A stretch of DNA of 58,594 nucleotides from Rathayibacter sp. VKM Ac-2754 (GTDB taxonomy: Bacteria; Actinomycetota; Actinomycetes; Actinomycetales; Microbacteriaceae). Where the stretch lies: assembly GCF_009807095.1 (NCBI RefSeq), contig NZ_WUCC01000015.1, forward strand, positions 1-58,594, read 5' to 3'. Numbering within the stretch: the stretch's first letter is position 1; each line of letters starts with the position of its first letter. The position numbers were made by a program, and so were the translations under genes. Positions 1 to 36,543 of the stretch are shown in pieces. Below the pieces are notes generated by a model. That model made no database searches. It saw only the letters and a list, made by a program, of their open reading frames with translations, and was not told the DNA's origin.

Positions 1-2370
1 AGCGGTGGGTGCCGTGGTCGGCGCGGTCGTCGGCGCGGCAGTCGGCGCGACGGTCGGCTCAGCAGTGGGCGTCGCGGTCGGCTCAGCGGTCGGAGTCGCG
101 GTCGGCGTCGGAACCGGCGCGGCGCCGAACACCTCGGTCGCGCTGCCGAGCGAGGCCAGCACGGTCTCGCCGTTCGCGTCGTCGACACCGTCGTTGTCGG
201 TCACGACGAACACCTCGCCGGAGCCCGTGATGCCGAGCCCCTCGAGCTTCTCCTGCGTCCAGCCGTTGCCGGCCTCGAGCGCGGGCAGCACGTCGGCCGC
301 GAGCGTCTTCTCGAGCACCGGGAGCTCCTCGCCGACGGCGGCACCGGCTCCGCCGGGCAGCGGAACCGTGTAGACCGCCTTGAGCGCCGCATCCGGACCG
401 TTGCGCTTGTCGCGCTCGATCACGGCGAGGGTGCCCGCCGGGGTCAGCGTGATCTCGGAGAGACCGTTCCAGTCGCCCTCGACGCCGGAGGCGGCCTCGA
501 GCGGGTAGCCGAAGAAGCTCCAGCTCTCGTCCGCCACGTCGTAGCGTCCGATCCGCACGATGCCGTCGGCGTCGATCGAGGCCTCGCGCTGCAGCGCGGT
601 CCAGACGATCTCGCCCTCGGCGCCCTGCTCGATGGTCACGCCCTCGAAGCCCTGCGAGCCGAGCGCGTCGGCGACCTCGGTCGGCAGGGCGATGCGCTGC
701 TGCACCGCGCCGTCGGCGTCGAGCTCGAGGAGCGCGTTCTCGGGGCCGGTCGCCCCTTCGGTGACGGCCCAGAAGCCGCCGTCGGCGCGCGCGGCGATGC
801 CCTCGAGGTCGAGGGCCGCCGGCTCACCCGCCTCGGTGACGGTGAGCGACGAGTCGATCAGCGCCGGGGTGACGGAGGTGTCGACCGAGTAGATCTCGCT
901 CGGCGCGTAGGCGCTGTCGCTGACCGCGAAGAGACGGTCGGCGTCGGCCGGGTCGGTCGAGAGGCCCGAGAGGGCGCCCCAGGGCAGCGGCGATCCGTCG
1001 ACGTCCGCCGACGCGATGGTCGGGAACGCGGGCGAGGAGGCGCCCATCGCGTAGAGCTGCACGCTCGCGCGGACGGCCGCCTCGGCGTCGTCGGTCTCGC
1101 TCGAGACGACCAGCAGGTCGCGCTCGGGCAGGGCGAGGAGCCCCTCCGGACCGGGCGTGGACGGCAGCGCCTGCACGAAGCGCGGCGCGGCCGGGTCGCT
1201 GACGTCGTAGACCGCGACGAAGTTGGCGCGCTCGGCGCCGACGAAGACGTAGGGCACGCCGTCGTAGGTGGCCGAGAGCAGGCCCTCGGGCTCGGCACCC
1301 TTGGCGTCGGAGCGCTTGTCGGGGTAGAGGCCGAGGCTCACCGCGAGGTGCTCGAACGTGTTGCCGGCGTCCCAGGTGATGGAGCCGGTGGCCGCGTCGA
1401 GGATCGACCAGCCGCGGGTTCCGCCCTTCCAGTCGCCCTCGTTCGCGATGGCGAGGTGGTCGTCGCCGACCCAGCCGATCGAGTCGGGCTCGCGGGGCAC
1501 GTCGGTGATCGAGCCGGTGAGCTCGATGTGGTCGTCGTCGAGGGTGTCGATCCCGCTGACGGAGGCGGTGCCCGCTGAGTACGAGGTGACGACGGAGCGG
1601 GTGGCCAGGTCGACGATCGCGACGGCGTTGTTCTCCTGCAGGGTCACCGCGACGGCGGTGTCGGCCGGGTTGATCGAGACATACTCGGGCTCGGGGTCGC
1701 TCGGGGTGTCGAGGCCGGCGAGTCCGGTCATGTCGACGTGCTCGGCGACCCACGCGGTGGGGTCGCCCGCGAGGTCCATCACCACGAGCTCGCCGGCGGG
1801 CGCCTGCGGGAGGTCGCCCTCGTCGCCGCCCTCGGGGGTGAACTCCTCGTCGCGCTGGTTCTCGATCGCGATGACGGCGGTGTCGCCGGCCGTGGTCACG
1901 TCGATGGAGTCGGGCTGTCCGCCGAGCTCGATCGTCGCGACCGGTGCGAGGTCGTCGGCGTGCAGGACGCTGACGTGGCCGGAGGGGTTCGCGAAGTCGC
2001 CGTCGCTGGTGTCGACGACCGCGAGCACGTACTCGCCGGTCGCGTAGACCGAGGTGGGCTCGCCTCCGACGCCCACGCCGCCCAGGGGCTTGGGTGCCTC
2101 GGGGTCGCTGATGTCGAGGACGTTGATGCGCTGACCGGCCGAGTCGGTCGAGTAGACGAGGCGGCCGTCGGGCGACGCGCTCGAGATCTCGGCGACGGCG
2201 GAGTCGACGGCCGGGTCGGCGGCGTTGAGGTACGCGGGCACGGTCGCGATGCGCGTGAAGAAGGAGTCGCCCGCGGCGGCGGCGGGCAGAGCGGCACCGA
2301 TCGTGCAGCTCGCGAGGGTGAGGGCGATCGCGGCGCCGGCGGCGCGACGGGGGGCGGTGTGACGGGGCAC
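1..2370 (-). CDS. Secreted phytase-like esterase / beta-propeller surface protein (3' end outside window)
   Basis: This frame is open for 790 codons and runs off the window, so the C terminus is missing. It starts at a GTG preceded by CAGGAGA. The N terminus is an export signal: basic VPRHTAPRR, a hydrophobic stretch with a possible lipobox LASC (residues 19-22), then an Ala-rich cleavage region. The first half has beta-propeller features (SPDGRLVYSTDSAGQRINVLD, EYVSINPADTAVAVTLQENN) of the choice-of-anchor I type. The second half (PWGALSGLSTDP, LDLEGIAARADGGFWAVTEG) resembles the 'esterase-like activity of phytase' family. The last visible residues are Pro/Thr/Ala repeats (PTATPTAEPT), typical of a wall-spanning stalk before a membrane or sortase anchor. 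A phosphate-ester hydrolysis role comes from family membership only; the true substrate is unknown. Confidence 0.8.
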   Translation of the reverse strand, partial: MPRHTAPRRAAGAAIALTLASCTIGAALPAAAAGDSFFTRIATVPAYLNAADPAVDSAVAEISSASPDGRLVYSTDSAGQRINVLDISDPEAPKPLGGVGVGGEPTSVYATGEYVLAVVDTSDGDFANPSGHVSVLHADDLAPVATIELGGQPDSIDVTTAGDTAVIAIENQRDEEFTPEGGDEGDLPQAPAGELVVMDLAGDPTAWVAEHVDMTGLAGLDTPSDPEPEYVSINPADTAVAVTLQENNAVAIVDLATRSVVTSYSAGTASVSGIDTLDDDHIELTGSITDVPREPDSIGWVGDDHLAIANEGDWKGGTRGWSILDAATGSITWDAGNTFEHLAVSLGLYPDKRSDAKGAEPEGLLSATYDGVPYVFVGAERANFVAVYDVSDPAAPRFVQALPSTPGPEGLLALPERDLLVVSSETDDAEAAVRASVQLYAMGASSPAFPTIASADVDGSPLPWGALSGLSTDPADADRLFAVSDSAYAPSEIYSVDTSVTPALIDSSLTVTEAGEPAALDLEGIAARADGGFWAVTEGATGPENALLELDADGAVQQRIALPTEVADALGSQGFEGVTIEQGAEGEIVWTALQREASIDADGIVRIGRYDVADESWSFFGYPLEAASGVEGDWNGLSEITLTPAGTLAVIERDKRNGPDAALKAVYTVPLPGGAGAAVGEELPVLEKTLAADVLPALEAGNGWTQEKLEGLGITGSGEVFVVTDNDGVDDANGETVLASLGSATEVFGAAPVPTPTATPTAEPTATPTAEPTVAPTAAPTTAPTTAPTA

Positions 2371-28250: not shown

Positions 28251-29218
28251 GAGTTCTGCTCTCCACCGGGTCGCCAGATCGCGAGGATCGCGACGAGCGC
28301 GACGGCGAGCATGACGACGAGGTACATCGTGCCCATCGCGCTGGCGAGACCCGGATCTCCGAATCGGATCATGGTGCGGTAGATCAGCAGCGACATCGTC
28401 TCGGTGCTCTGCTGGGGTCCGCCGTTGGTCTGGATGAGGATCACGTCGAACGCGCGGGCGGCGTCGATCCCGCGCAGGATCAGTGCGACGGCGATGACGG
28501 GGCGCAGCAGCGGGATCACGATCCGGAAGAGGATCGCCGGGTAGCGCGCTCCGTCGAGGCGGGCGGCCTCGATGATGTCGCCGGGGATGTTCTGGAGGCC
28601 GGCGAACAGCACGAGGGTGATGAACGAGGTGGTCAGCCAGATGTCGGGGATGGCGACCGAGAACAGCGCGATCGAGGGGTCGCTCAGCCAGGCGATCTGG
28701 CCGGGCGAGGAGAGGATCCCGATCCGGGCGAGCACCTCGTTGACGATGCCGACGTTGTCGATCAGGAGGAACCGCCAGAGCAGCCCGGCCACGATCGGCG
28801 CGATCATCAGCGGGTACAGGAAGATCGTGCGGAAGACCCGGGACGCGTCGCCGAGGGCCGTGAAGAGCAGCGCGACACCCAGGCCGAGGACGAACTCGAG
28901 GGCGACGACGATGATCGTGTAGACGACCGTCCGCCACGACGCGTTCAGGAAGTCGGGCGAGGCGAACGCTGCGGCGTAGTTGCCGAGCCCGATGAAGTCG
29001 CGCGTCCCGCCGATCGGGTCGATCGAGAAGAACGAGTCGCCGACGAACTGCAGCAGCGGCCAGCCGACGAAGACGGCCAGGAACAGCGTCGCCGGGACCA
29101 TCAGGAGGGTGGCGAAGCGCTTGTCGCTCAGCGAGCGGCGCGGGGGCCGGTCCGGCCGGGGGCCGGAGGGGGAGGTCCCCGTCCGGCCCGCGGCCGGCGC
29201 CTGAGTGGCGGAGGTCAC
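28247..29218 (-). CDS. Sugar ABC transporter permease (MalF/CUT1 type), fructan locus
   Basis: 323 residues. A disordered Pro/Gly/Arg-rich N-terminal tail precedes about six membrane segments, starting ATLLMVPATLFLAVFVGW. EAA loop: IEAARLDGARYPAILFRIVIP. Start GTG overlaps the binding-protein stop as GTGA. It forms the channel with the 27411 permease. Confidence 0.92.
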   Translation of the reverse strand: MTSATQAPAAGRTGTSPSGPRPDRPPRRSLSDKRFATLLMVPATLFLAVFVGWPLLQFVGDSFFSIDPIGGTRDFIGLGNYAAAFASPDFLNASWRTVVYTIIVVALEFVLGLGVALLFTALGDASRVFRTIFLYPLMIAPIVAGLLWRFLLIDNVGIVNEVLARIGILSSPGQIAWLSDPSIALFSVAIPDIWLTTSFITLVLFAGLQNIPGDIIEAARLDGARYPAILFRIVIPLLRPVIAVALILRGIDAARAFDVILIQTNGGPQQSTETMSLLIYRTMIRFGDPGLASAMGTMYLVVMLAVALVAILAIWRPGGEQNS

Positions 29219-30537
29219 TTCGCCACCAGGGTCTCGACCTGCTGCGCGGCGTCGTCGAGGAGCTGCTGGTTGTCGGCTCCGGGCTCGACCGACTTCTGCA
29301 GCATCGGGATCAGCACCGTGTCGACGATCTGCTGCCACTCGGCGACCGCGGGGCGCGGGAGGGTGGCGGGGGAGTTCAGGGTGTCGAGCAGCGGCTTGTA
29401 GTTCTCGAAGCCCTCGACGTCCTGGTACTTCTCGAGGACCGAGATGCGCGAGGCGAGGCCCAGGCTGGTCTCGGCGCTGAGCTCGTTGTTGTCGTAGGCG
29501 TACTGCACGAACTCGAGTGCCTTCTCCTGCTTCTCGCTCGCCTCCGCGACCGAGAGGTACCACGCGCCGGGCACTCCCGCGGGCCCGGCCTCGCCGCCGA
29601 TCATCGGCGCGACTCCGACGTTGCCGGCGACCGCGGCGTCGGCCGGGATCTGCCGGTAGGCGTGCGCCCAGAAGCGCATCATGGCCGTCTGGCCCTGGTT
29701 GAAGAGGTTCTGCGCCCCGGCCCAGTCGAGCTGCGCGGCGCCGGGAGGAGCGTAGGGCAGCAGGCTCGTGTAGAAGTCGAGCGCCTCCTTGCTCTCGGCG
29801 TCGCCGAGCGAGACGGCTCCCTCGGTGTCCGTCACCATGGTCGTCTCGCCGGTCTGCGACAGCGTCGCGAGCCACTCCGTCTCGACGGCGCCCTTCACGT
29901 CGGTCCCGTACAGGTCGGTCGTGCCGTCGCCGTCGGTGTCCTGGGTGAAGAAGGCGGCTGCGTCGCGGTACTGCTGCCAGGTGGTCGGCGGGACGAGGTC
30001 GTAGCCGTACTCGGCCTTGAAGGCCGCCTGCTGAGCGGGGTCCTCGAAGAGGTCGGTGCGGTAGTAGAGGATCTCGGAGTTTGTCCACGCCGGCATGCCG
30101 ACGTAGCTGCCGTCGACGTCCGCCTCCTCGACGAGGGAGGGGAAGAGGTCTGCGACGACGTCGTCGGTGTAGAGGTCGTCGAGCGGAGTCACGGCGCCGG
30201 CGAAGGCGGGCAGCCAGATCGCGTCGAGGGCCGCCACGTCGAACGAGACGCTGCCCGCGGAGAACTCGCTGTTGAGGCGGTTGTAGAGCCCGTCGTAGGG
30301 CAGCTCGACGAAGTCGACGGTCGTCCCCGTGTCCTCGGTGAACTTGTCCGCGATGGGCTGGAGCTCGACGAGACCGCCTGCCTCGACCAGGACGATGACC
30401 GTGTCGGCATCGCCGGAGGCGCCGGTGCCGCCGCCCGCGCCGCAGCCGGCGAGGACGGTGGTCGAGGCGAGGGCGACGGCGCCGACCAGGAGGACTCTGC
30501 GCCGGGCGAGGGGGCGGGGTGTTCTGCGAAGCGACAT
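29215..30537 (-). CDS. Sugar ABC transporter, substrate-binding lipoprotein, fructan locus
   Basis: 440 residues from ATG 30537 behind TTGGAG. Signal peptide starts MSLRRTPRPLARRR and ends in lipobox VLAGC (Cys32). Mature part is a family 1 sugar-binding protein: VIVLVEAGGLVELQPIADKF, FVELPYDGLYNRLNSEFSAG, a Trp/Thr-rich ligand region, and LEFVQYAYDNNELSAET. It is divergent from the GH32 gene, with two overlapping operators between. Given the GH91 and GH32 enzymes it probably binds difructose anhydride or short fructo-oligosaccharides; this is inferred from context. Confidence 0.9.
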   Translation of the reverse strand: MSLRRTPRPLARRRVLLVGAVALASTTVLAGCGAGGGTGASGDADTVIVLVEAGGLVELQPIADKFTEDTGTTVDFVELPYDGLYNRLNSEFSAGSVSFDVAALDAIWLPAFAGAVTPLDDLYTDDVVADLFPSLVEEADVDGSYVGMPAWTNSEILYYRTDLFEDPAQQAAFKAEYGYDLVPPTTWQQYRDAAAFFTQDTDGDGTTDLYGTDVKGAVETEWLATLSQTGETTMVTDTEGAVSLGDAESKEALDFYTSLLPYAPPGAAQLDWAGAQNLFNQGQTAMMRFWAHAYRQIPADAAVAGNVGVAPMIGGEAGPAGVPGAWYLSVAEASEKQEKALEFVQYAYDNNELSAETSLGLASRISVLEKYQDVEGFENYKPLLDTLNSPATLPRPAVAEWQQIVDTVLIPMLQKSVEPGADNQQLLDDAAQQVETLVAK

Positions 30538-30625
30538 TGATTCGGCTCCAATCGAGAGCGCTGTGCGGGGGTGCCGGGGGGTCGACGGATGCCGACGAAG
30601 GACAGCATGCACGGGATGCCGACGT

Positions 30626-30655
30626 TTGACAAGACGTTTTGGCAAAACGTATTGT
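30626..30655 (+). promoter_or_regulatory. Consensus promoter of the GH32 gene, apparently leaderless
   Basis: A perfect -35 TTGACA (30626-30631), an 18-bp spacer and -10 TATTGT (30650-30655) place the transcription start about 7 nt downstream, at or within one base of the ATG at 30662. No ribosome site is present, so the mRNA is probably leaderless. Confidence 0.75.
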
Positions 30656-30656
30656 C
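30628..30656. promoter_or_regulatory. Two overlapping LacI-type operators
   Basis: GACAAGACGTTTTGGC (30628-30643) and GGCAAAACGTATTGTC (30641-30656) each match the perfect palindrome at 34843-34858 with two or three changes. Their CpG centres are 13 bp apart. Together they also form the odd palindrome ACGTTTTGGCAAAACGT (30634-30650). They cover the GH32 spacer and -10, so bound repressor would block that promoter. Confidence 0.8.
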
Positions 30657-30661
30657 ACCTC

Positions 30662-31945
30662 ATGACCTCGACCTCCATCGACGCGGCTGGACGTCTCGAC
30701 GGCGCCCCCGCGCCTCGGGCGGAACGCCCCCGCATCCACTTCACCGCCGAGTCCGGCTGGATCAACGATCCGCACGGGATCACCGTCCACGACGGGCGGT
30801 ACCACCTGTTCCACCAGTACGTGCCCGGCAGCGCGGTCTGGCAGCCGACCTGCCACTGGGGCCACGCGGTCGGGACGGACCTGCTGCACTGGGAGCGCCG
30901 CCCGATCGCACTCGCCCCGGGCGACGGCGACGGCGGGATCTGGACCGGTAGCCTCGTCGATGCGGAGGACGGTGCTCGCATCCTCTACACCTCGACGATC
31001 GCGGAGGATTACGCGCTCGGGCGGATCCGCGTCGCGCGCCCGACCGATCCGAGCTGGGACGTGTGGGAGAAGGGCGACGTCCTCCTCCGGCCGCCCGCCG
31101 ACCTCGACCTCGTGGTCTTCCGCGATCCCTTCGTGCTCCGCGAGGAGGCCGGGTGGCGGATGTTCGTCGGCGCGGGCACCTCCTCCGGCGACGCGCTCGC
31201 GATCACCTACACCTCCGCCGACCTCGACTCGTGGCAGTACGACGGCGTCGCCGCCCGCCGCTCGACGAGCGAGCGCGAGCCGGTGTGGACGGGGGCGCTC
31301 TGGGAGTGCCCGCAGATCGTCGAGATCGACTGTCGGCACGTGCTGATCAGCTCCGTGTGGGACGCCGACGTCCTGCACTACGCGGCCTACGGGATCGGCG
31401 AGTACCGTGACGGCCGCTTCGAGGCGCGCGACTGGGGGCGGCTCAGCTTCGGCGACTCCTACTACGCCCCGTCGTTCTTCCGCGACGCGGAGGGCCGCCC
31501 CTGCCTGATGTTCTGGATGCGCGGCGTCGAGGACGCGGAGGCGGGCTGGACCGGTGCGCTCAGCGTCCCGCACCTGCTCGGGATCCGCGACGACCGGCTC
31601 GTCGTGCTGCCCCACCCCGCGTGGGCGTCGGCCCCCGGTGCTCCCGTCGACCTCGAGGATCTGACGGGTGCCCCGGTGCTGATCGGCTGGACCCCGGAGG
31701 GCGCGGGCGACCGGCTCGAGCTCGGGGCGGCGACGGCGCTGGTCTGGGACGGTGCCGCGGTCGCGCTCGAGCGCTCAGGCGCGGAGACCTCGAGCGCCCC
31801 CCACCGCGGCGGTCGCCTCGAGGTGCTCCTCGACGGGCCGGTCCTCGAGGTCGTGACCTCGGCCGGAGTGCTGGGCGGGCCGATCGCCCCGGCGACGAGC
31901 GCCCGCGCCGTCGGCGGGCGGGCGGAGGCGCGGGCGCTCGCCTGA
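30662..31945 (+). CDS. Beta-fructosidase, glycoside hydrolase family 32
   Basis: 427 residues. All three GH32 catalytic motifs are present: nucleophile in WINDPHG (Asp36), transition-state stabiliser in FRDPF (Asp155) and acid/base in WECPQ (Glu215). The five-bladed propeller is followed by a short beta-sandwich. No signal peptide, so it works inside the cell on imported fructosides, releasing fructose from sucrose, inulobiose or short fructans. It is divergent from the importer operon and convergent with the GH91 gene, only 21 bp apart. Start at ATG 30662 fits a leaderless transcript. Confidence 0.93.
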   Translation: MTSTSIDAAGRLDGAPAPRAERPRIHFTAESGWINDPHGITVHDGRYHLFHQYVPGSAVWQPTCHWGHAVGTDLLHWERRPIALAPGDGDGGIWTGSLVDAEDGARILYTSTIAEDYALGRIRVARPTDPSWDVWEKGDVLLRPPADLDLVVFRDPFVLREEAGWRMFVGAGTSSGDALAITYTSADLDSWQYDGVAARRSTSEREPVWTGALWECPQIVEIDCRHVLISSVWDADVLHYAAYGIGEYRDGRFEARDWGRLSFGDSYYAPSFFRDAEGRPCLMFWMRGVEDAEAGWTGALSVPHLLGIRDDRLVVLPHPAWASAPGAPVDLEDLTGAPVLIGWTPEGAGDRLELGAATALVWDGAAVALERSGAETSSAPHRGGRLEVLLDGPVLEVVTSAGVLGGPIAPATSARAVGGRAEARALA

Positions 31946-31966: not shown

Positions 31967-33304
31967 TCAGTCCCCGATCCCGGGCGTGGCTCTGACGGCG
32001 TTGACGCTCCGGTCGGCGACGACCTCGGCGTCGGTCCCGGAGTCGAGGATCGTGTTGCCGACCGACTCGGCGTCGACGACGACGGTCGCGAGGGCGAGCC
32101 CGCCGGCGGCTCCGGTGTGCAGCAGCGCGTCCACCTGCGCCTCGAAGGCCGAGCCGCCCGAGGCCGCGCGCACGTCCTTGCCCACCATGTGGTTGGCGGC
32201 GATGTGGTTCCCGGTCCCCGCCGTCAGCCGGATGACGACCGGTCGCTCGCCGGCGGGACGGACCTTCTGCGAGTCGACCACCTCGGAGAAGTTGCCGATC
32301 ACGGAGTTGTCGCTGCCGTCGAGGACGAGGAGCCCGTCGCTGTCGGCCCGCCCGTTGTCGACGCCCAGGAACGGCGTCCACGGCTCGTGGTCGCGGAGGA
32401 GGTGGTTCGAGCCGACGAGGTTCTCGGAGCTGCCCGCCTCGAGCACGACCATCCCGGGGTAGAAGGAGTGCAGCCGGTTGTTGGTCACGCTCGACCGGGT
32501 GACGCCGCGGAGGCGGACGCTGCTCTCGCCGCGCGGGAAGACGTTGTTCGCCGTGATCAGCAGCCCGCCGTGGTTCTCGGCGTAGATCGAGTGACCGCGG
32601 GGTCCGGCTCCGATCAGGTTGTCGGTGATCTTCGACGCCTGACCCCAGCCACGCAGCTCGATGCAGGATCCGCACTCGGCGATGAAGTTGTCGTGGATCG
32701 AGAGCGCGTCGGCGTTGTCGATCCGGAGGGCGTGCTCGAGGTAGACGAACCCCATGCCGGTGACGCGGAACGAGTCGTTGGCGCCGGCGACGCGGATGCC
32801 GGTCCTCCCGTTGACGTAGGTGTTCTCGGGGTGCCGGTCGGAGCCGTCCGCCTCGAAGTGCAGCCCGTCGATGCAGAAGTCCGCGAACTCGACCGAGCTG
32901 ATCCGGGGGCTGCCCTCGCGCTTCACGAGGAACGCCGCCCCCTCGCTCTCGTCGGCGCCGTCGGCCACGGGGATCCGGACCATGATCCGGCTGCCCCCCG
33001 GCCAGAGCTCGTGCAGGTCGGGCCACTCCTCCTCGGGCACGTTGAAGCGGATGCTCGACGAGGTGAAGCCGTGCCCGGAGCCCTGGATCCTGAGGTAGCT
33101 GATGTCGATCACGACCTGCGTCAGGAGGGGGTAGTCGCCGGGCGGCACGACGATCACGGCCCCCGGCTTGCCGCGGCTGTCGTCATCGGTGGCCGTCTGC
33201 CGGCTCTTGATGTCGGCGAGGATGCTGGTGAAGACCTCGCCGATGTCCTCGAAGGGATCGCCGATCGGCCAGGTGGTCACGTCGTAGAGGTTGGCGGACG
33301 GCAT
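31967..33304 (-). CDS. GH91 family enzyme, probably cytoplasmic DFA-III hydrolase
   Basis: 445 residues of right-handed beta-helix type, with family blocks YDVTTWPIGDP, PGAVIVVPPGDYPLLTQVVI, GSGHGFTSSSIRF, TGMGFVYLEHAL, NFIAECGSCIEL and LHSFYPGM. Inulin fructotransferases (exported, making difructose anhydride) and DFA-III hydrolases (cytoplasmic, opening it to inulobiose) are both in GH91. The lack of any signal peptide and the C-terminal insert with SAFEAQVDALLHTGA favour the hydrolase. Asp205 and Glu216, 11 residues apart, have the spacing of the catalytic pair reported for GH91 enzymes (as recalled). It is downstream of the second GH91 gene, across an 88-bp gap with a strong hairpin. Confidence 0.85.
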   Translation of the reverse strand: MPSANLYDVTTWPIGDPFEDIGEVFTSILADIKSRQTATDDDSRGKPGAVIVVPPGDYPLLTQVVIDISYLRIQGSGHGFTSSSIRFNVPEEEWPDLHELWPGGSRIMVRIPVADGADESEGAAFLVKREGSPRISSVEFADFCIDGLHFEADGSDRHPENTYVNGRTGIRVAGANDSFRVTGMGFVYLEHALRIDNADALSIHDNFIAECGSCIELRGWGQASKITDNLIGAGPRGHSIYAENHGGLLITANNVFPRGESSVRLRGVTRSSVTNNRLHSFYPGMVVLEAGSSENLVGSNHLLRDHEPWTPFLGVDNGRADSDGLLVLDGSDNSVIGNFSEVVDSQKVRPAGERPVVIRLTAGTGNHIAANHMVGKDVRAASGGSAFEAQVDALLHTGAAGGLALATVVVDAESVGNTILDSGTDAEVVADRSVNAVRATPGIGD

Positions 33305-33340
33305 GGGTGTCTCTCTCGCTCTCGGGTCGGTGCTGGGGTG

Positions 33341-33373
33341 GAGGGGGGCGCGGCGGGCGGCCGCGCCCCCCTC
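33341..33373 (-). terminator. Hairpin between the two GH91 genes
   Basis: Perfect 13-bp arms GAGGGGGGCGCGG (33341-33353) and CCGCGCCCCCCTC (33361-33373), 7-nt loop. It follows the stop of the exported GH91 gene and precedes the start of the cytoplasmic one, so it may end or reduce transcription into the latter. No T-run is present. Confidence 0.6.
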
Positions 33374-33392
33374 CTGTCTCTGCCTCTGCAGG

Positions 33393-34634
33393 TCAGGGTG
33401 TCGGACGGAATCCGTAGCTGGTCGTCGCGGCCCTGAACTGCGCCTCGGTGCCGCTGTCGAACACGTGCGAGTTCGTCGTGCCGGCGTCGAGCACCACGGT
33501 GTGGACGACGAGGTTCGTGATCACGTGGTTCGCGCCGATCTGGTTCTGGTCCCCCGACTGCACGCGGAAGACGGCGGGCGTCGCTCCCGCCGGCGCGACC
33601 TGCTCCGGCGGCATGATCAGCGAGACGTGGTTCGCGGTGATCGTGTTGCCGTCGCCGTTCACCTGGACGACGCCGAACAGGTCGTCGCGCCCGTTCCCGA
33701 CCCCGATGAAGGGCCCGAAGGTCTCGACCTGGCGCTCGAGCACGTTGGAGGCGATCAGGTTCTCCTTGCAGTTCCCCTCGAGGGTGATCATGCCCGGGTA
33801 GAAGGAGTGCAGGCGGTTCGACGAGACGCTCGAGCGGTAGCAGTTCTTCAGGTGCACCGAGTCGATCCCGCGCGGGAACACGTTGTTCCCGGTGATCAGG
33901 AGTCCGTTGTGCCCCTCCGCGAAGAGCGAGAAGCCGACGGGACCGGCCCCCAGGTGGTTGTCGCTCACCTTCGACGCCTGGCCCGAGCCGACGAGCTCGA
34001 TGCAGCTGCCGCACTCGGCGAGGAAGTTGCCCGAGACGTCGAGGGCGTCGGCGTCCTGGACGATGAGCCCGCGCTCGAGGTAGACCATGCCCATGCCGCG
34101 CACCCGCGTCGCGTCGGTCGCCGTGGCGAACCGGATGCCGACCTTGCCGTTGCGGTAGGAGTTCTCGTCGGCGCCGAACGAGACTCCGTCGAGGCAGAAG
34201 TTCTCGAAGGTGACCGAGTTGAGGCGGGGGTCGCCCGTGCGGGTGACGAGGAACGCCTCCGAGGTGCCGTCGGTGTTCTCGACGCGGACGTGGCTGCCGC
34301 CGGGGTTCAGCTCCTTCCACGCCGAGGTGACGCCGGCGTTGTAGCGGATGCTGAGCGAGGTGAAGCCGTGGCCGGATCCGCGGATCGTCAGGTAGCTGAT
34401 GTCGACGACGACGCGGGTCTTCAGCGAGTAGGTCCCCGGCGGGATGTAGACGACGGCGCCGGGCTTGTCGGCCTGGGCGGGCTGCGTGCGCTTGATCTCG
34501 GCGATGATGTCGTTGATCACGGCGCCCAGATCGCTCTGCGCGGTCACCTTCCGGCCGCGCACCTTCCAGTCGGTGACGTCGTAGACGTTCGAGACACGGG
34601 CGTCGCTCGACGTCGTCGCGACGGCGGCGGTCAC
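33393..34634 (-). CDS. GH91 inulin fructotransferase-like enzyme (lacks in-frame signal peptide)
   Basis: 413 residues from GTG 34634. It shows the full GH91 beta-helix pattern: VYDVTDWKVRG, QSDLGAVINDIIAEI, PGAVVYIPPGTYSLKTRVVV, SGHGFTSLSIRY, FLAECGSCIELVGSGQ and LHSFYPGM, ending FDSGTEAQFRAATTSYGFRPTP. The family splits inulin into difructose anhydrides outside the cell and normally carries a signal peptide. Here the peptide is in another frame, in the ORF at 34631-34789 that overlaps the GTG by GTGA. Gly202 stands where the 31967 copy has catalytic-type Asp205; Glu213 is kept. DFA-I- versus DFA-III-forming specificity is not decided. Confidence 0.82.
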   Translation of the reverse strand: MTAAVATTSSDARVSNVYDVTDWKVRGRKVTAQSDLGAVINDIIAEIKRTQPAQADKPGAVVYIPPGTYSLKTRVVVDISYLTIRGSGHGFTSLSIRYNAGVTSAWKELNPGGSHVRVENTDGTSEAFLVTRTGDPRLNSVTFENFCLDGVSFGADENSYRNGKVGIRFATATDATRVRGMGMVYLERGLIVQDADALDVSGNFLAECGSCIELVGSGQASKVSDNHLGAGPVGFSLFAEGHNGLLITGNNVFPRGIDSVHLKNCYRSSVSSNRLHSFYPGMITLEGNCKENLIASNVLERQVETFGPFIGVGNGRDDLFGVVQVNGDGNTITANHVSLIMPPEQVAPAGATPAVFRVQSGDQNQIGANHVITNLVVHTVVLDAGTTNSHVFDSGTEAQFRAATTSYGFRPTP

Positions 34635-34789
34635 AGCAGGCCCACCGGGACGGAGCGGCGGCCCGCGGCGACCGGGGCGGCAGCGGCAGCGGCAGCCGGC
34701 TCGAGCTGACCGGACCACGCGGCGACGACGGTGCTGATGCTCGCCGCGACCCGGAGGACGGTGCGGCGGCTGAGGACGGGGGTGGACAT
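34631..34789 (-). CDS. Stand-alone Tat signal peptide ORF preceding GH91
   Basis: 52 residues from ATG 34789 behind GAGGAGA. The peptide is MSTPVLSRRTVLRVAASIST, a twin-arginine motif plus hydrophobic core, then AAWSGQLEPAAAAAAAPVAA with a cleavage-like Ala-rich end, then a short linker GRRSVPVGLL and TGA. Its stop overlaps the GTG of the GH91 gene (GTGA). A minus-one shift near CCCGGTGGGCC would join the two into one exported protein. It could be a frameshifted gene, a sequencing error, or a programmed shift; a free 52-residue secreted peptide is less likely. Confidence 0.75.
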   Translation of the reverse strand: MSTPVLSRRTVLRVAASISTVVAAWSGQLEPAAAAAAAPVAAGRRSVPVGLL

Positions 34790-34842
34790 GCTGTCTCCTC
34801 TTCGAGTGCAGGTCGCTCGGCGGACGATGTCCACCGGCGGCC

Positions 34843-34858
34843 GCCAAAACGTTTTGGC
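34843..34858. promoter_or_regulatory. Perfect LacI-type operator
   Basis: GCCAAAACGTTTTGGC is a perfect 16-bp palindrome with central CpG, 54 bp upstream of the Tat-signal ORF. It is the best copy of the motif found at 30628-30656, tying the GH91 genes to the same LacI regulon. Confidence 0.85.
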
Positions 34859-35094
34859 ACGAGACGACAAGACTAGTGCCGAGTCGCCGGCGAACGGAAG
34901 GGCCGGCTCCGCGGCGATGCCGAGCCCACCTGTCGACCGGCGTCCGTGCGCGACAGCGAGGGGGAACATCCTCGCCCTCTTCGGCGAGTAGACCGGGCGC
35001 GCCGGTGGCCCTCGACCGGGCGGGAACGCGAGCCTAGAGTGGCTGCTGCGGGCTCGCCGGAGAGCGCGCTACCGTCATCGAGCGGAAGGTGAGC
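34859..35094. other. Divergent gap between GH91 and MFS genes
   Basis: No coding frame recognised. A weak -10 TAGAGT lies at 35035-35040 before the MFS gene. A short hairpin GCGAGG...CCTCGC occurs around 34956-34975. The MFS start follows GGAAGG. Confidence 0.35.
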
Positions 35095-36543
35095 ATGTCC
35101 TCCGACACTCCCGCCCCCGAGACCGCGGATCTCGGGAGGACGAGCCTCCGCACCTTCCACCAGATCCTCGTCAACACGGCGTTCGCGAACGTGACGACGA
35201 GCTTCCTCTGGTTCGCGCTCACATTCTGGGTGTACCTCGAGACGCGGTCGGTGCTCGCGACCGGCATCATCGGCGGCGCCTACATGCTGCTCGTCGCGAT
35301 CTTCGCGATGGCCTTCGGCAGCATCGTCGACCGGCACCGCAAGTACCGGGTGATGCTGTTCGCCGGCGCGGTCACGCTCGTGTCGTTCGGCGTCGCGGGC
35401 GGGCTGTACCTCGTGCTCCCGGAGTCGGTGCTGCTCGACTTCGGCGGTCCCTGGTTCTGGGTGTTCTCGGGCACGATCCTGTTCGGCGCCGTCATCGAGA
35501 ACATGCGCAACATCGCCCTGTCCACCTCGGTGACGCTCCTGGTCCCGGTGGAGCGCCACGCGAACGCGAACGGGCTGGTCGGCACGGTGCAGGGGCTCGC
35601 CTTCGTGGTCACGAGCGTGTTCAGCGGACTGTCGATCGGCGTGCTCGGCATGGGGTGGACGATGCTGATCGCGATCGCCGCCTCCGCCGCCGCCCTCGTC
35701 CACCTGCTGTTCCTGAGCATCCCGGAGGACCGGCCCGCGACGGACGGCGAGCAGGCCCCGTTCATCGATCTGCGGGGCAGCGTGTCGGCGGTGCGGGCGG
35801 CGACCGGACTGTTCGCGCTGATCGTCTTCTCGACCTTCAACAACCTGATCGGCGGCGTCTACATGGCGCTGATGGATCCGTACGGGCTGGAGCTCTTCCC
35901 CGTGGAGGTGTGGGGGATCGTGCTCGGCGTGACCGCGACGGGCTTCATCATCGGCGGTCTGCTGGTCGCGAGGTTCGGCCTCGGGAGGAACCCGGTCCGG
36001 ACGATGCTGCTGCTCGTGATGGCGATGGGCCTGATCGGCGCCGTGTTCACCCTCCGCGACTGGTGGTGGCTCTACGCCGGCGGCATCTGGATCTACATGA
36101 CGCTGATCCCGGCGGTCGAGGCCGCCGAGCAGACGGTGATCCAGAAGGTCGTGCCGTTCGAGACCCAGGGGCGGGTCTTCGGCTTCGCGGCGGCCTTCGA
36201 GTCGGCCGCGGCTCCGGTCACGGCGTTCCTCATCGCGCCGATCGCCGAGTTCGCGCTCATCCCCTACATGGAGTCGGCGGAGGGACGGTCGGCCTGGGGA
36301 GGGCTGCTCGGCGACGGGATCGGCCGCGGCATCGCGCTGGTGTTCCTGATCGGCGGGATCATCATGATCCTCGCGGCGGCCGCGGCGCTCGGGACCCGGT
36401 CGTTCCGCGTGATCTCCGCGCAGTACCTGCGCGGGGAGCCGGCCTCCGGGGAGTCCGGGGAGGCCGGTTCGGGCCGTGCTCCTGTCGGCGAGTCTCCCGA
36501 GCCCGCGCCGGAGGAGAGCGCGCCCGACCGGTCGCGTCGCTGA
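35095..36543 (+). CDS. MFS transporter
   Basis: 482 residues with about twelve membrane segments. ATG 35095 lies 5 nt after GGAAGG; the GTG at 35089 overlaps that site. Loop 2-3 carries the MFS motif GSIVDRHRKYRVMLF, and segments such as TGIIGGAYMLLVAIFAMAF and VVTSVFSGLSIGVLGMG are clear. The C-terminal 40 residues are a charged Pro/Glu/Ser-rich tail. The layout resembles DHA-type multidrug or macrolide exporters (MefA-like). It is convergent with rhaB and does not look like part of the rhamnose operon. Substrate unknown. Confidence 0.85.
   Translation: MSSDTPAPETADLGRTSLRTFHQILVNTAFANVTTSFLWFALTFWVYLETRSVLATGIIGGAYMLLVAIFAMAFGSIVDRHRKYRVMLFAGAVTLVSFGVAGGLYLVLPESVLLDFGGPWFWVFSGTILFGAVIENMRNIALSTSVTLLVPVERHANANGLVGTVQGLAFVVTSVFSGLSIGVLGMGWTMLIAIAASAAALVHLLFLSIPEDRPATDGEQAPFIDLRGSVSAVRAATGLFALIVFSTFNNLIGGVYMALMDPYGLELFPVEVWGIVLGVTATGFIIGGLLVARFGLGRNPVRTMLLLVMAMGLIGAVFTLRDWWWLYAGGIWIYMTLIPAVEAAEQTVIQKVVPFETQGRVFGFAAAFESAAAPVTAFLIAPIAEFALIPYMESAEGRSAWGGLLGDGIGRGIALVFLIGGIIMILAAAAALGTRSFRVISAQYLRGEPASGESGEAGSGRAPVGESPEPAPEESAPDRSRR

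Follow-up and report, generated by a model that had tools for sequence, protein, structure and literature searches.

The window analysed here is a 58,594-nucleotide stretch of Rathayibacter sp. VKM Ac-2754 (the whole of contig NZ_WUCC01000015.1), and our subject is a pair of genes on its minus strand: a 52-residue open reading frame (ORF), called the micro-ORF below, that is little more than a signal peptide for twin-arginine translocation (Tat), and directly behind it the gene for a GH91 inulin fructotransferase. The parts of the pair are:

34795..34800, minus strand: Shine-Dalgarno sequence GAGGAG of the micro-ORF, 5' of ATG 34789 (from the sequence)
34631..34789, minus strand: micro-ORF, putative Tat carrier, 52 amino acids plus stop, start ATG 34789, stop TGA 34633-34631, translation MSTPVLSRRTVLRVAASISTVVAAWSGQLEPAAAAAAAPVAAGRRSVPVGLL
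34751..34771, minus strand: twin-arginine motif SRRTVLR of the micro-ORF (read from the sequence)
34634..34645, minus strand: conserved C-terminal V-G-L-L of the micro-ORF, directly 5' of the stop (comparison of 50 micro-ORFs)
34631..34634, minus strand: GTGA stop/start overlap of micro-ORF and GH91 gene (read from the sequence)
33393..34634, minus strand: leaderless GH91 inulin fructotransferase, 413 amino acids, start GTG 34634 (Pfam PF18835; phmmer 2inu, 9j4i)

Behind its twin-arginine motif the micro-ORF has a hydrophobic stretch and an Ala-rich end, and its short tail closes with VGLL; neither Pfam nor NCBIfam holds a family that the 52 residues match above cut-off. The enzyme gene is certainly GH91: PF18835 scores above cut-off (E 6.5e-20), and phmmer aligns 2inu across residues 15-413 (E 2.5e-137). 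Inulin fructotransferases are classed in this family (excerpts of PMC4640833). Residues D196 and E207 of the window enzyme, invariant in 17 aligned rows and 11 residues apart, are probably equivalent to the catalytic pair D207/E218 that the same excerpts give for AaDFA-IIIase, from the identical spacing. A first-pass annotation made from the letters alone had described an ORF that is almost only a Tat signal peptide, its TGA overlapping the GTG of the GH91 gene (GTGA at 34634-34631), and a GH91 frame different from that of the micro-ORF and lacking a signal peptide of its own; all of this holds on direct reading, the last point by eye.

A short ORF upstream of leaderless GH91 genes

GH91 genes were collected from a contig-based scan, which kept 80 of 141 relatives, and from genome searches in sets that overlap: 60 relatives, 15 genomes of the genus, 396 of the order, 394 of the class and, from the genera of G363 and G777, 198 and 295 genomes. 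In the genus of G363, 30 matches were made into loci and a further 20 stretches were added, most other matches being left out. The fragments L148 and L149 were set aside, and L114, L137, L138 and L143/L144 (pieces of one broken gene) were kept out of tree and counts. With identical proteins merged into one row, the tree holds 123 distinct rows, one of them (L030) shortened to 270 amino acids.

The rows fall into clade A (41; SH-aLRT support 86), group D (8), clade B (7), clade C (66) and a long-branch leaderless outlier, L102. Clade A contains the window enzyme and that of Microbacteriaceae bacterium VKM Ac-2855, along with sequences from Curtobacterium, Microbacterium, Leifsonia, Subtercola, Galbitalea, Glycomyces, Sinomonas, Kocuria, Arthrobacter and their kin. 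Midpoint rooting puts group D beside L102; its exact position is unsure, and we make no claim of one origin or two for the arrangement described below.

The groups differ at the N-terminus. In the clade A and group D rows that were read, GH91 has no signal peptide of its own and starts 3-16 residues N-terminal of a VYDVT anchor. In all seven clade B rows the Tat signal is part of the GH91 frame and a separate ORF is absent, and the same was seen in L138 and 16 more clade B loci, some from the same species. Clade C has no separate micro-ORF in its 66 rows and no in-frame Tat signal in those read by eye. Among plasmid-borne GH91 genes, mostly from Rhizobium, the single N-terminus read (Agrobacterium) has no Tat signal. 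A script had also flagged an in-frame Tat signal in the window row (WIN/L091) and in L009, L015, L052, L058 and L063; these six flags were judged false because the start codon lies 3' of the flagged stretch, and labels were assigned by hand.

We then counted ORFs of at least 35 amino acids whose last residues are [VIL]G[VLM][LI] and which lie no more than 750 nucleotides upstream of GH91. In clade A, 40 of the 41 rows have exactly one such ORF before the gene, as do all 8 rows of group D (48/49 for the two leaderless groups), versus 0/7 in clade B and 0/66 in clade C (0/73 together); the outlier L102 lies outside this count. On the antisense strand the same criterion gives 1 (A), 0 (D), 0 (B) and 3 (C). 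Although found by their C-terminus alone, all 48 ORFs carry an RR pair 25-75 residues before the end. The sole exception, L015, follows another GH91 gene in tandem, and the micro-ORF stands before that first gene. Outside the main counts, the micro-ORF also occurs in L145 (group D-like, genus of G363), L114 and L137.

A profile built from a 21-row micro-ORF alignment (A5) finds the window micro-ORF in its own genome at E 3.9e-11, followed by 16 weak matches starting at 0.005, of which 15 lie in open frames of at least 175 amino acids and one in an 84-residue frame containing a stop. Across ten genomes of the genus, only the two with a clade A GH91 beat E 1e-6 (3.9e-11 and 7.2e-13; next best 3.8e-4). 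By the count of 48/49 versus 0/73, micro-ORF plus leaderless GH91 is a real conserved arrangement, more than chance, as the first-pass annotation had conditionally supposed. It had also suggested looking for in-frame signal peptides among GH91 relatives: clade B has them, and none is fused in the 49 leaderless-group rows.

Two observations on these groups stand apart from the counts. At L015:2580-5221, two clade A-like GH91 genes lie in tandem behind one micro-ORF, and this single carrier may serve two enzymes. Six positions are kept in A and D and differ in B and C: V17, Q54, N120, D122, G123 and V358 (numbering of the window GH91, 1 = GTG 34634). These are possible docking or specificity residues.

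The 50 micro-ORFs compared are 52-77 amino acids long (median 63), with a conserved Tat motif, a variable middle and a conserved C-terminus; the two arginines are invariant in A5, and all 50 have, judged by eye, the RR motif and a hydrophobic stretch, RR having been used to pick these 50 but not in the count of 48/49 versus 0/73. All 50 end in [VIL]-G-[VLM]-[LI]-stop with varied synonymous codons. Position -4 is Ile in 31, Val in 16 and Leu in 3; position -3 is Gly throughout, in four codons; position -2 is Val in 28, Leu in 17 and Met in 5; the last residue is Leu in 47, in five codons, and Ile in 3. A regular expression on the three C-terminal residues served to pick these ORFs, so that part of the conservation there follows from the selection, which does not apply to the 48/49 versus 0/73 contrast. 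A frequent form of the tail, following a variable Pro/Ala-rich spacer, is H-R-x-x-[VIL]-G-[VLM]-[LI]-COOH. Between the window and VKM Ac-2855, micro-ORF differences number 7, 10 and 25 by codon position, most at the third. The pattern fits selection at the protein level with the stop codon as its end, rather than a junction to be bridged. Another alignment (A2) was set aside, since MAFFT had placed tails inside the enzyme.

Proposed export of GH91 and the rival readings

The two leaderless groups, which judging by a published case (S14-3, below) can be extracellular, have the micro-ORF; clade B, with its Tat signal in frame, does without it, and the clade of DFA-IIIase type (DFA, difructose anhydride) has neither. 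The simplest mechanism is Tat hitchhiking. We propose, with a probability of roughly three in four, that the micro-ORF is a minimal, separately encoded Tat carrier that exports folded GH91. It would begin with a twin-arginine signal peptide, continue in a variable Pro/Ala-rich spacer and end in the conserved tail, and would be translated from the same message just ahead of the enzyme. The tail would bind folded GH91 in the cytoplasm, the signal peptide would lead both proteins to TatC, and GH91, having no leader, would cross as a hitchhiker, to be released by signal peptidase. From there we infer that the freed GH91 cleaves inulin outside the cell to difructose anhydride, which would be imported and then hydrolysed in the cell by the product of the next gene, the enzyme of DFA-IIIase type. 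If right, this would be the smallest Tat carrier known to us, and a short C-terminal tail could export folded enzymes without signal fusion. Leaderless enzymes adjoining tiny Tat ORFs may then be wrongly annotated as cytoplasmic.

The carrier would resolve a puzzle in the literature. The culture supernatant of A. globiformis S14-3 contains the DFA I-forming enzyme of this strain, although its gene encodes no signal peptide; the ORF has 1182 bp, and its product is 49.8% identical to a DFA III enzyme (PMC5448860, Haraguchi 2011). Two group D genes (L109, L110) are also 1182 bp long (393 codons plus stop), and identity to clade B is 43-53% for 9 group D or D-like rows and 51-56% for 8 clade A rows. 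By ORF length and identity range the S14-3 enzyme fits group D. A literature search, with subscription journals mostly outside its reach and earlier reports therefore possible, met fructotransferase and twin-arginine together in one paper, by its listing an unrelated genome survey.

Several points weigh against the carrier. The link from S14-3 to group D is one of ORF length and identity range, and the published extracellular location concerns S14-3, export of the window enzyme being a prediction. In AlphaFold models of two natural read-through fusions (L013, L014) the enzyme folds well and the tail stays undocked at pLDDT below 50; both are weak tests, being monomers with a forced linker of 15-17 residues and almost no tail alignment, but they lend the carrier no support. 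Tat signals and leaderless calls were judged by eye. Outside the counts, the leaderless outlier L102 has no micro-ORF, and none was found at the broken GH91 gene L143/L144 in G1124.

A shared transcript with a common start is probable from sequence features. A site resembling CNAAACGTTTNG (at most 2 mismatches) occurs within 300 nucleotides upstream of the micro-ORF at 38/50 loci (0/8 in group D), inside the micro-ORF at 1/50 and between it and the GH91 anchor at 5/49, the three stretches being of unequal length. No terminator-like site was seen within 33250-35100. The window has this palindrome upstream of the pair:

34844..34857, no strand: LacI-type palindrome CCAAAACGTTTTGG, 54 nucleotides 5' of the micro-ORF start, which we take to be a putative operator

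Closest to the carrier, and overlapping with it, is a carrier that is also a dedicated chaperone, its tail preventing GH91 from becoming active or assembling in the cytoplasm before it is exported. We regard this addition as unlikely, though a serious candidate: the micro-ORF has no recognised domain, and we know of no cofactor that GH91 needs. There is a precedent in MelC1, which combines both roles for apotyrosinase (excerpts of PMC2758597).

Rather improbable is an independent secreted peptide that signal peptidase cuts free and that acts as a signal or as an enzyme regulator, with GH91 leaving by another route or staying inside. The mature part would indeed be short and conserved at its C-terminus, and the fusion models show no docking on GH91; against this reading stand the linkage to leaderless GH91, the absence from clades B and C and, among the ten genus genomes, profile matches better than E 1e-6 only in the two that hold a clade A enzyme.

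The layout of the junction bears on the remaining readings. The window GH91 has no Shine-Dalgarno sequence before GTG 34634; therefore its translation is probably coupled to the micro-ORF through the GTGA overlap. VKM Ac-2855 (L010) also has this overlap, and L011 has a TGATG form; by the script's choice of starts, 2 of 48 pairs overlap (window and L011), a later GTG having been chosen in L010, where a start at the GTGA is also possible. The overlap and the missing Shine-Dalgarno sequence in the window suit a leader ORF that controls GH91 expression by coupling or attenuation and has no part in export. We consider this very improbable, because the tail is kept as protein through synonymous change, the Tat arginines are retained, and 44 of 48 GH91 genes have their own Shine-Dalgarno sequence, 11-211 nucleotides after the micro-ORF stop.

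The first-pass annotation had offered other explanations, a programmed minus-one frameshift among them, which would join signal peptide and enzyme and so make exported and cytoplasmic forms from one mRNA. In the window and in L010 the four-nucleotide overlap does have the relative frame that such a shift needs. Elsewhere all three relative frames are used (26:14:9 of 49), the micro-ORF stops 20-220 nucleotides before the VYDVT anchor, GH91 starts up to 211 nucleotides 3' of that stop and mostly with its own ribosome-binding site, and in 50/50 the conserved residues run right up to the stop; by reading, the window junction has no slippery X-XXY-YYZ heptamer. We see hardly any chance for a frameshift, and the two forms from one mRNA give way to a two-gene reading of carrier and cargo. 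A single gene from an upstream TTG in the GH91 frame was considered and rejected, the conserved frame being the Tat frame. The junction was also to be compared in related strains: VKM Ac-2855 has the same ORF and overlap at 91% protein identity, so that a one-base deletion, recent frameshift or sequencing error splitting one gene in this strain is practically dismissed, since the ORF is separate in 48/49 rows of two groups and fused in none, even if in this strain a small shift is all it would take to fuse the two frames and another GH91 clade has its Tat signal in frame.

Neighbouring genes and a second candidate pair

Around the pair lie the following:

31967..33304, minus strand: second GH91, DFA-IIIase type, 445 amino acids, no signal peptide seen, no micro-ORF (phmmer 5zl5/5zks, E ~1e-221)
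30569..31945, plus strand: GH32 fructosidase, context (PF00251, E 9.2e-58)
29215..30540, minus strand: ABC sugar-binding protein, context (PF01547, E 2.7e-27)

With an ABC permease, an MFS transporter and a sugar kinase also nearby, the neighbourhood is a fructan utilisation cluster. The second GH91 falls in clade C (row L009) and is likely cytoplasmic; a characterised DFA-IIIase has no signal peptide (excerpts of PMC4640833). Between the GH91 stop and this gene lies a GC-rich inverted repeat without a T run (33340-33374), which could set the ratio of the two GH91 enzymes or stabilise the upstream message.

Three weak matches of the micro-ORF profile in G040 were read; two are ordinary Tat proteins and one led to a new pair of Tat ORF and cargo, located at:

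L178:1441-1713 and 74-1438, minus strand: Tat ORF and DUF4331-type protein (further loci L181-L186)

At 6/6 loci, from 5 of 246 genomes searched, a Tat ORF of ~80-95 amino acids lies 0 to ~100 nucleotides upstream of a leaderless DUF4331-type protein, whose sequence starts MSSHREAPEISKDP; DUF4331 was confirmed by Pfam in one locus and the others were recognised by the SHREAP start. Two of the six have a TGATG overlap. These Tat ORFs have a conserved C-terminal stretch of their own and lack the tail motif of the GH91 carrier. A literature search on DUF4331, with subscription journals mostly outside its scope, found no paper. The second pair suggests a class of detached Tat carriers. Whether there is a general class, in which a tiny Tat gene with a short recognition tail exports a leaderless partner in trans (a hook of ~5 C-terminal residues for GH91, a different C-terminus for DUF4331), seems to us an evenly balanced proposition. 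If true, a signal peptide need not belong to the exported protein, or be fused to a folded subunit of it, and many proteins labelled cytoplasmic may be exported through detached Tat carriers.

Known Tat co-export systems

In redox complexes co-exported through Tat, the signal is borne by a full subunit. Hydrogenases, formate dehydrogenases and PaoABC resemble the GH91 pair in that one subunit bears the Tat signal for others, and differ from it in being such redox complexes (excerpts of PMC10924467, PMC4273604). In the FAD glucose dehydrogenase of Burkholderia cepacia (BcGDH), the alpha subunit hitchhikes on gamma, whose C-terminal region makes a hydrophobic cluster on its cargo, a likeness to the proposed tail; unlike the GH91 carrier, gamma is a subunit of a solved structure, stays in the complex and serves a redox enzyme with FAD and 3Fe-4S (excerpts of PMC6719666).

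A near parallel in layout is Streptomyces MelC1/MelC2. MelC2, itself without a signal peptide, leaves the cell as a hitchhiker on MelC1, so that here too the upstream gene carries the Tat signal and the downstream leaderless enzyme is the cargo; MelC1 also carries out copper incorporation and activation, whereas the GH91 carrier consists of signal peptide, spacer and short tail (excerpts of PMC2758597). By Pfam and NCBIfam the micro-ORF matches neither the MelC1 nor the BcGDH-gamma family, a separation made by family searches only. The DFA III-forming inulin fructotransferases, members of the same family GH91 and likewise exported, have their signal peptide in frame (32-40 amino acids; PMC5448860). 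Set beside these systems, the GH91 pair would be a new variant of Tat hitchhiking, in which the signal is supplied by a separately encoded microprotein.
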